64,000 nucleotides of DNA, from contig JAUVXU010000005.1 in NCBI GenBank assembly GCA_030603445.1, positions 1-64,000 of the forward strand, given 5' to 3'. This document shows, one piece after another, positions 13,420 to 50,847 of this stretch. Each line of letters opens with the position of its first letter. The first letter of the stretch is position 1. The translations under genes and the position numbers were made by a program. The notes beneath the pieces were generated by a model that was given only the letters and a program-made list of their open reading frames with translations, had not been told where the DNA came from and made no database searches. Source of the stretch: Methanomicrobia archaeon (GTDB lineage: Archaea; Methanobacteriota_B; Thermococci; Methanofastidiosales; NM3).

Positions 13420-14115
13420 GTGCGACTTATTATGGAAAATATCACATATAACGCAGGACATAATAGTATAGTTGATAACGTTTCACTGTCCTTTGATAAA
13501 AACAAGCTCTATGTTATAGTTGGGCCATCGGGTGCTGGGAAAACTACCCTCCTTACATTGCTTAACGGCATCATTTCCCCGACACGAGGCAGTATTCTGT
13601 TCAATGGAGAAAACATATTCACTTATGATGCTCCTTCCTACCGTTCCCGTGTATGCCTCCTCTTTCAAGAACCGCTGCTTATATCAGGCAATGGGTTGGA
13701 CAATCTGATGCTCCCATTTAGTTTCAAGTCGAACGTTAAGAAAACACCAAGCCATGAGGACGTGCAAAAAGCAATATCATCATGTGCGCTTACAGATAAC
13801 TACTTAGAGAAGGATATATGGACATACTCCGGCGGAGAAAAACAACGATTAAGCCTTGCAAGAACCCTTCTGCTAGACCCTAATGTGTTTTTGCTCGACG
13901 AACCTACATCAGCACTTGACGCGACATCAGAAAAACAAATAATAAAAACGCTAGAACACCTGAAAGACAATCGCATAATAATATGTGTAAGCCACTCCCG
14001 CCAGCTCATAAGCAAGGCAGATACTATCATCTTCATCAAGGAAGGGAAAATAAACCATATTTCTAATAGTATAGAACACGAATCAATAGAACGGTTCCTG
14101 GAGGGATCAAAATAG
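13420..14115 (+). CDS. ABC transporter ATPase (FetA/YbbL-like)
   Basis: A 231-residue ABC ATPase with Walker A GPSGAGKTT (about residues 33-41), signature YSGGEKQRLSLARTL, Walker B VFLLDEPTSALD and the switch histidine in CVSHSRQL. The partner is the permease whose reading frame overlaps its stop, of the FetB/UPF0014 type, so the pair is a likely FetAB-like exporter; in bacteria FetAB is linked to iron export, and the substrate here is not shown. A GTG start at 13420 follows GGGGAGG at 6-7 nt spacing. An inferred ribosome-binding site for the permease lies inside its last codons. Confidence 0.85.
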   Translation: MRLIMENITYNAGHNSIVDNVSLSFDKNKLYVIVGPSGAGKTTLLTLLNGIISPTRGSILFNGENIFTYDAPSYRSRVCLLFQEPLLISGNGLDNLMLPFSFKSNVKKTPSHEDVQKAISSCALTDNYLEKDIWTYSGGEKQRLSLARTLLLDPNVFLLDEPTSALDATSEKQIIKTLEHLKDNRIIICVSHSRQLISKADTIIFIKEGKINHISNSIEHESIERFLEGSK

Positions 14116-14909
14116 CTGAAACGATAGTCGACATCTCCTTCCTTGGCCTTATTCTGGCATATTCCCTCATTAGCCTTGTCATATTTCTTGTAAAAATAAA
14201 GCATTTAGCTTTAGTGCGTGACATGATAATTTCTTTGATTCGGATGTCTGTGCAGCTTATCGCAGCAGGCATCGTGCTTCAAGTTGTCTTCGATATTAGT
14301 GCATGGTACATCGTGATAGGAATAGTGATTTATATGCTTATCATGGCGTCTCACATAGTATTTTCAAGGGTACATGCAAGAACCCCGCATCTGCAAAGAA
14401 ACATCCTTATCTCCGTCGTCTTTGGTTCTGGAAGCGTGTTGGTATTTATCGTTATAGCCATTGTAGGACAAGAGCCCTGGTACGATCCACACTATATAAT
14501 ACCTTTAGGAGGAATGATAATAGGCAATGCGATGAATGGATGTGCGCTTGCCTTTGAAAGATTTCATTCTTCCATACAAAAAGAAAAGAAGAAAATCCTT
14601 ACGCTCCTTGCACTAGGTGCAACATACCAGGAAGCCACGTCCTCGAACTTTAAGGAGGCATTTAAGGCATCATTTCTGCCACAATTAATAACAATGTCTG
14701 CTATGGGCATAGTAGCTCTTCCCGGAATGATGACAGGACAAATCTTATCTGGAACAGAACCCCTTGTTGCAATCAAGTACCAAATATCAATTATGATATG
14801 TATCGTAAGCAGCAATGCGCTTGTTGCATATAGCATCCTTTACCTGGAGAACAAGGAATTATTTACCTCATTCCACCAGCTGATATCTTCAGAACCAAAA
14901 AAATCATGA
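14112..14909 (+). CDS. ABC exporter permease (FetB/UPF0014 family), apparent ATA start
   Basis: A membrane protein of about 265 residues when started at ATA 14112, close to the family's usual length of about 260. The family's first membrane helix (SFLGLILAYSLISLVIFLV) and the conserved segment after it (LVRDMIISLIRMSVQL) are present, but the frame has no ATG, GTG or TTG between an in-frame stop at 14067 and GTG 14214, which lies after helix 1. GGAGGGATCAAA stands just upstream of ATA 14112, and the ATAG overlaps the TAG of the ATPase gene as in ordinary coupled starts. About seven helices follow, with the FetB-like cytoplasmic segment around residues 150-185. CTG 14154 or a sequencing error are alternatives. 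Confidence 0.8.
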   Translation: MAETIVDISFLGLILAYSLISLVIFLVKIKHLALVRDMIISLIRMSVQLIAAGIVLQVVFDISAWYIVIGIVIYMLIMASHIVFSRVHARTPHLQRNILISVVFGSGSVLVFIVIAIVGQEPWYDPHYIIPLGGMIIGNAMNGCALAFERFHSSIQKEKKKILTLLALGATYQEATSSNFKEAFKASFLPQLITMSAMGIVALPGMMTGQILSGTEPLVAIKYQISIMICIVSSNALVAYSILYLENKELFTSFHQLISSEPKKS

Positions 14910-49382: not shown

Positions 49383-49700
49383 TTACTTTTCATTGTCTTT
49401 TTTCCATGAATGGATAGCTTTAATCAAAGCCTTACGAGACCACACTTCCTCGGGGAATCCCCTCATAAGCATAAGCACGGATATTGCTTCAACTATTTCC
49501 TCTTCACATGCGCCAGCATCCATGGCCCTCTTAACATGGTAATCAATGCATGTTTCACAGCGATTAATAATAGATATTACTATAGCGATTAGTTCTTTTG
49601 TCTTTAAATCCAGTACAGTAGATTCGTTCATTACACTACGTACCATAGTGTCATATGTGTTCCACAACTTAGCATAATGTTTCTCTATAAGTGATGGCAT
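49383..49700 (-). CDS. AhpD/carboxymuconolactone decarboxylase-like protein
   Basis: A 105-residue all-helical protein with the AhpD redox motif CETCIDYH (C48, C51, H55). Such proteins act as disulfide reductases or peroxidase partners; true carboxymuconolactone decarboxylase activity is unlikely. GAGGTGTAAAG precedes the ATG. It is upstream of arsR by 103 nt and may be part of the redox neighbourhood, though with its own promoter. Confidence 0.85.
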   Translation of the reverse strand: MPSLIEKHYAKLWNTYDTMVRSVMNESTVLDLKTKELIAIVISIINRCETCIDYHVKRAMDAGACEEEIVEAISVLMLMRGFPEEVWSRKALIKAIHSWKKDNEK

Positions 49701-49917
49701 ACTTTACACCTCTTATGGCATATTATCACTTAAATAAAATAAAGTTTCCTATAAGCACTTATGACAAAGCGAGCAATACTATGGGGCGAGAAGAAAGAGA
49801 ATAAATAAGATATGTCCACCAAACTTATGCTTTCTTGGCCTATGCATAATAATTAAATAGTTTGAAAAGCTAAAAGTTTCACTATTAAGTCTTTTTCAAT
49901 TCTATGAGGGGGGAATT

Positions 49918-50847
49918 ATAGATACTAGTCCAAGTTATCTAAAGCTACAGGAAAATGGGGAGCTTCAAAAACGTGTAAGAAAATTGTACTCCAAACTTGA
50001 ATCCTGTTCACTTTGCCCCCGAAAATGTTTAGTAAATAGAATGGAAGGCGAAAAAGGCGCTTGCAATTCAGGCATGCATCTTAAAGTATCAGATCATTTC
50101 CCTCATTTCGGAGAAGAAACCCCTCTAGTGGGCAACAAAGGCTCAGGAACGATATTTTTGTCACATTGTAACTTAAAATGTGTTTATTGCCAAAACTATA
50201 GAATAAGCCAAGATGGAGAGGGAACTACCACGACACCCGGGCAAGTTGCCGATATGATGATAAAACTACAAGAAAGCGGTTGTCACAACATAAATCTCGT
50301 TTCCCCTACACAATATACTCCTCAACTTATTGAAGCCCTCGACTACGCCATAGCAGAAGGATTGCATATCCCTCTTGTATGGAACAGCGGCGGATACGAA
50401 AGCGTGGACACCTTAAAACTATTATCAGGAATTGTTGATGTTTATCTTCCAGATATTAAATATGGCTCCAATGAAGCAGGACAAAGATATTCTAACGCCC
50501 CAGGTTACTTTGACGTATGTAAAGATGCATTATTTGAGATGTATAGCCAAGTAGGGGATCTTAAAATGAAAAGAGGAATAGCTTACCGTGGGATGATAAT
50601 ACGGCATCTGGTCCTTCCAAACAACTGCGCCGCAAGTGAAAATGTATTGCCATTTCTTGCATCCATGTCAAAAAACAGCTATGTGAACATTATGGGGCAA
50701 TATCGCCCATATGCAGATGCATTTAAGTTTGAGGAACTTAAAAGATGCCCTACAAGATATGAAATATCCAAAGTCCATAAAATAGCGCGAACTTTAGGTT
50801 TAGTACGGGGTTTCCAAAAAACGTGGAGCAGTAATCTGTGTCATTAA
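49918..50847 (+). CDS. Radical SAM protein (PflA-like, COG1313), apparent ATA/ATT start
   Basis: A protein of about 309 residues if started at ATA 49918. The N-terminal cysteine motif CSLCPRKC and the radical SAM motif CNLKCVYC are clear. Homologues begin with a conserved segment like PSYLKL-x4-GEL-x-R before the first Cys motif; here it is encoded (SPSYLKLQENGELQKRVRKL) but the frame has no ATG, GTG or TTG from its upstream stop at 49858 to TTG 49984. GAGGGGGG stands right before ATT 49915/ATA 49918. It resembles activases of glycyl radical enzymes, but no glycyl radical enzyme gene is in the window. Confidence 0.8.
   Translation: MDTSPSYLKLQENGELQKRVRKLYSKLESCSLCPRKCLVNRMEGEKGACNSGMHLKVSDHFPHFGEETPLVGNKGSGTIFLSHCNLKCVYCQNYRISQDGEGTTTTPGQVADMMIKLQESGCHNINLVSPTQYTPQLIEALDYAIAEGLHIPLVWNSGGYESVDTLKLLSGIVDVYLPDIKYGSNEAGQRYSNAPGYFDVCKDALFEMYSQVGDLKMKRGIAYRGMIIRHLVLPNNCAASENVLPFLASMSKNSYVNIMGQYRPYADAFKFEELKRCPTRYEISKVHKIARTLGLVRGFQKTWSSNLCH

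Follow-up and report, generated by a model that had tools for sequence, protein, structure and literature searches.

A putative AUA start codon in a radical SAM gene and other candidate non-canonical starts in a Methanofastidiosales genus

Where does a gene begin when its conserved N-terminal segment lies ahead of every canonical start codon in its frame? The question is raised by a radical SAM gene in a window of 64,000 nucleotides (the whole stretch of DNA analysed) from an uncultured archaeon that encodes McrA and is presumably a methanogen of the Methanofastidiosales. The frame is open from 49861 to 50847 (328 aa) behind an in-frame TAG at 49858-49860, and its upstream neighbour is divergent (49383-49700, minus strand). 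An earlier note on this DNA had claimed that no ATG, GTG or TTG occurs from this stop to TTG 49984, which sequence and frame check bear out: TTG 49984 is the first canonical codon, and SPSYLKLQENGELQKR is encoded between the two. The note's further claim that a conserved segment precedes the first cysteine motif also stands, given that homologues align upstream of the TTG. The features discussed here are listed in Table 1.

Table 1 Features around the two putative ATA starts of the window
Feature	Position	Strand	Length	Remark
FetA-like ATPase frame (part shown)	13435..14115	+		Stop TAG 14113-14115 overlaps fetB start as ATAG
Shine-Dalgarno GGAGG of fetB	14100..14104	+		7 nt before ATA, E -10.95
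FetB-like permease (UPF0014)	14112..14909	+		Putative start ATA 14112
Mini-ORF ATGAGGGGGGAATTATAG, out of frame	49904..49921	+		TAG overlaps ATA start (ATAG)
Shine-Dalgarno GAGGGGGG of radical SAM gene	49906..49913	+		GAGG ends 8 nt before ATA
Radical SAM gene (PflA-like fold)	49918..50847	+	309 aa	Proposed start ATA 49918-49920
TTG, first canonical in-frame start	49984..49986	+		Rejected as main start

The protein matches the Radical_SAM domain (PF04055) above cut-off. Among 20 aligned homologues, its CX3CX2C motif (CNLKCVYC, with C84, C88 and C91) is invariant, and so is a motif of four cysteines at the N-terminus. It reaches none of the NCBIfam equivalogs, and scores 21 bits against the curated equivalog TIGR02493 (PFLA), for which the cut-off is 231.75. 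An AlphaFold model of the 309-aa protein has a pLDDT of 93.7, and the blocks that hold helices 7-12 and 15-25 are modelled well. Among solved structures, pyruvate formate-lyase activating enzymes come closest to it in fold (best PDB match 3c8f). We take the protein to be of the PflX-like (COG1313) type.

Alignments to homologues from 76 public genomes and from the nearest relatives mostly begin at residues 20-26 of the 328-aa frame, around DTSPSY and upstream of the TTG. About 75 homologues from many phyla share the segment before the TTG, and most of them have a canonical start in or near it. The segment includes Y7, L10 and R19, each at least 90% conserved in the 20-sequence alignment. Three homologues in this alignment have ATG in the same column as ATA 49918, and some homologues begin 3-4 codons further upstream. 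The strong Shine-Dalgarno that the earlier note saw before ATT 49915 and ATA 49918 is present as GAGGGGGG, with both codons 3' of it, but its spacing is right for the ATA and wrong for the ATT: the gap from GGAGG to the start is 6-9 nt in the spacing profile of this genome, and GAGG lies 8 nt from ATA 49918 versus 5 nt from ATT 49915. Its predicted energy is about -7.7 kcal/mol in the GAGG register and -10.4 in a G.U register, with the anti-Shine-Dalgarno assumed to be standard because no 16S rRNA gene was found in the assembly. A Shine-Dalgarno of -7.5 kcal/mol or lower at optimal spacing occurs at 2.9% of random positions, and at 0.27% before an ATH or CTG codon.

The earlier note called the radical SAM gene the second case of a non-standard start in the window, and the window does hold another putative ATA start, that of the FetB-like permease, which is possibly the note's first case. 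The permease matches PF03649 and the FetB model, and its first canonical codon is GTG 14214, from which translation would lack the first membrane segment. The codon at the proposed start of fetB is ATA in three species of one genus, namely this genome (G000), G001 and G002, whose FetB proteins share 64-66% identity, with values of 66% for G001 and 65% for G002, and ATG in the sister genus (G003); a G-rich, Shine-Dalgarno-like stretch precedes the start in all four. The persistence of this ATA in three species argues against both a sequencing error and a pseudogene. Comparison of start codons in relatives, proposed in the earlier note as a check, thus favours a maintained ATA for fetB, in two other species, and not for the radical SAM gene, which starts with ATG in G001.

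The FetA stop and the fetB start overlap by 4 nt in G000 and G002 and also in the G001 sequence, as termination-reinitiation calls for (an upstream stop that overlaps the start or lies a few nucleotides from it). We rejected -1 frameshifting from FetA into FetB, as G001 and G002 read TCG CCA TAG, with no slippery site. For the radical SAM gene no translated upstream gene was found from which ribosomes could reinitiate, only the 5-codon mini-ORF without a Shine-Dalgarno. The first three ATA starts that we found all read ATAG.

In a wider comparison, 826 kb of G000 (about half of the genome) was surveyed against 749 kb of G001, with two Thermococcales (800 and 400 kb, 200 gene pairs) as controls. 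The samples have 39.5% G+C in G000 versus 55% in G001, which belong to the same genus by kinship. A first G000-G001 screen for conserved N-termini before the first canonical start was swamped by shadow ORFs, so a filtered version was used. Six G000 genes have a conserved N-terminus at a non-canonical codon, namely FetB, radical SAM, YdjM-like and PurP (ATA), LplA-like (ATT) and PorC-like (CTG). All six have in-frame stops upstream and most have strong Shine-Dalgarnos; one of -7.5 kcal/mol or lower, at the right spacing, precedes 5 of the 6 (random, 2.9%). The YdjM-like ATA directly follows an in-frame TGA, and ATG is used in relatives aligned over the N-terminus. In PurP, the first canonical codon comes 51 codons after the ATA, and the matches to 16 full-length relatives begin at residue 1-4. 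The LplA-like ATT directly follows a TAA, and the PorC-like CTG has a Shine-Dalgarno of -14.4 kcal/mol and is the residue at which the NCBIfam model begins; in both genes, full matches of relatives begin mostly at residues 1-5. G001 has a lipoprotein with ATC where G000 has ATG, a RACo-like ASKHA protein with ATC behind AAGGAGGT, 41 codons before a canonical start, and three more cases that rest mainly on the Shine-Dalgarno.

A homology screen of G000 without the Shine-Dalgarno filter again found N-termini conserved up to the codon for the ATT (LplA-like), the ATA (YdjM-like), PurP, which entered at ACA, the codon after its ATA, and the CTG (PorC-like). The remaining codons that lined up with canonical starts, such as AAG, AAT, TTT and GCA, were judged by eye and rejected, because a true ATG or GTG aligns better a few codons downstream. 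No convincing non-canonical start was found in the 200 Thermococcales gene pairs, a smaller sample than that of G000. Ab initio enrichment of ATH and CTG codons behind Shine-Dalgarnos is noisy and only suggestive (Fisher P = 0.07 in G000 and 0.09 in G001). As the 826-kb sample has about 780 called genes, the six cases correspond to a rate of about 0.8%, which is a lower bound given that genes without relatives fall outside the test. Two other loci were noted along the way. At L117:13969-14032 a strong Shine-Dalgarno precedes an out-of-frame ATG, whose short ORF overlaps the start of a 411-aa gene. At L129:16316-17209 (minus strand) a long ORF runs for about 50 codons with neither a canonical start nor a near-cognate start behind its Shine-Dalgarno, and is possibly truncated or frameshifted.

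Against this background, four other readings of the radical SAM start can be weighed. The one that fares best, although we consider it unlikely, is recent decay, in which an ATG has mutated to ATA and the gene is silent or becoming a pseudogene. A single transition separates ATA from the ATG that G001 still has, but the frame is full length with its invariant residues intact, fetB has kept its ATA over a long divergence, and PurP, a conserved biosynthetic gene, has the same kind of start. Slightly less probable is an assembly error in the G run. ATG 49904, shortly ahead of a run of six Gs, is out of frame by a single base, and seven Gs would bring it into frame (MRGGIIDTSPSYL...) as an ordinary start, in keeping with the homologues that begin 3-4 codons further upstream. 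However, ATG 49904 has no Shine-Dalgarno of its own (-2.1), the GAGG would fall inside the gene and yet be well spaced for the ATA, and the other five genes, as well as the fetB ATA in three assemblies, would be left unexplained. Just as improbable is translation from TTG 49984, with the conserved upstream segment no longer translated. This codon is the first canonical start and both cysteine motifs lie downstream of it, but its Shine-Dalgarno is weak (-4.35), the frame ahead of it stays open and similar to homologues, and a start there would delete Y7, L10 and R19 together with the confidently modelled helix 7-12 and most of helix 15-25. A start at ATT 49915, likewise an isoleucine codon and directly upstream of the ATA, is the least probable of the four despite the seemingly genuine ATT start of the LplA-like gene, as it falls outside the usual spacing from GAGG.

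Within the ATT/ATA pair at which the earlier note had proposed a non-standard start, homology, Shine-Dalgarno spacing and the want of alternatives thus favour the ATA. We regard ATA 49918 as the probable start because the GAGG spacing fits it, the Shine-Dalgarno at the TTG is weak, ATG 49904 has none and the segment before the TTG is conserved. On sequence evidence, we give a probability of about 0.8 to the reading that the gene is intact, starts at this ATA and takes part in a minor initiation mode of the genus.

How such starts might be accepted is suggested by the initiator tRNA. That of G000 (L188:7263-7340, minus strand; G000:C40:67291-67310) shows the GGG:CCC stem and A1-U72 typical of initiators, but position 33 of its anticodon loop is a C (C33); U33 is found in the elongator Met tRNA. 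By pattern search, initiator C33 occurs in 5 of 5 genomes of the family of G000 (f1) and in 3 of 4 of the neighbouring family (f2), and initiator U33 in f3, one f4 genome and 18 Thermococcales. ATG is used in the genes examined in G003 (fetB) and in several f1 and f2 relatives (YdjM). With start codons surveyed in G000 and G001, the link between C33 and relaxed start choice is a correlation only, and C33 a possible cause.

In E. coli, AUA is a very weak start, which speaks against its use. Here, the GAGG(GGGG) Shine-Dalgarno would place the 30S subunit at AUA 49918, where the initiator Met-tRNA would tolerate a mismatched third base of the codon. AUA, AUU and AUC differ from AUG at the third base only, and CUG at the first only, a pattern that would fit a less strict check of codon-anticodon pairing, offset by strong Shine-Dalgarnos. 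The genus may use AUA, AUU and CUG (G000) or AUA and AUC (G001) as a minor initiation mode, usually behind a strong Shine-Dalgarno and sometimes assisted by termination-reinitiation, as the fetA-fetB overlap would allow. We infer decoding of AUA as methionine, production of the protein in useful amounts and a contribution of C33 to the relaxed start choice. A bolder reading, which we consider less likely than not, is that the clade of methanogens has lowered its start stringency through a eukaryote-like C33 initiator, so that AUA, AUU, AUC and CUG would be regular, maintained starts in about 1% of genes. Loss or oddity of aIF1 was rejected as a cause, as aIF1 is present in G000, is ordinary and itself starts with ATG. 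The aIF1 of S. solfataricus is reported to discriminate against non-canonical starts (cited in PMC6237735), which likewise speaks against the proposed initiation mode.

The archaeal starts given in a 2020 review are AUG, GUG and UUG (PMC7531240), and according to a 2021 review the demonstrated cases of non-canonical translation in archaea concerned elongation and termination only (PMC8211752). Within the open-access literature searched, the presence of several putative AUA starts in a single archaeal genome, with one that is conserved between species, appears to be new, as does the C33 initiator tRNA. Because Prodigal does not consider ATA, ATT or CTG (PMC2848648), genes with such starts are truncated or lost in annotation. 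With canonical codons only, the predicted PurP would be shorter by about 51 residues and the predicted FetB would lack its first membrane segment. A lineage in which conserved AUA starts occur alongside an altered initiator would make start-codon stringency in archaea directly testable.

Rare AUU and CUG starts are known in bacteria, in infC and pcnB of E. coli. As proposed here, a near-cognate codon behind a Shine-Dalgarno is read by the initiator tRNA, but the bacterial examples are single genes, whereas the six candidates proposed here, most of them AUA, come from half of one archaeal genome. In an annotation-based study of 61,358 ancestral bacterial AUG starts, two had switched to CUG and one to AUU, with none listed to AUA (PMC5622118). 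An ATT start has been inferred for the Asgard tubulin AtubA (PMC13394414), which likewise has a conserved N-terminus reachable only from ATT, with a ribosome-binding site at a plausible distance. That case concerns one gene and came to light through a structure model, whereas here a set of candidates from about half of the genome is proposed and the putative fetB start is conserved across species. Archaeal overlapping gene pairs with termination-reinitiation share ATGA overlaps (PMC10666635), and fetA-fetB also overlaps by 4 nt, but as ATAG with a putative AUA start. In the P. abyssi complex, uS9 contacts the phosphate of the U33 that the initiator carries there (PMC7531240). Eukaryotic initiator tRNAs are marked by C33 (PMC9023262), and the clade of G000 shares it in an archaeal setting.
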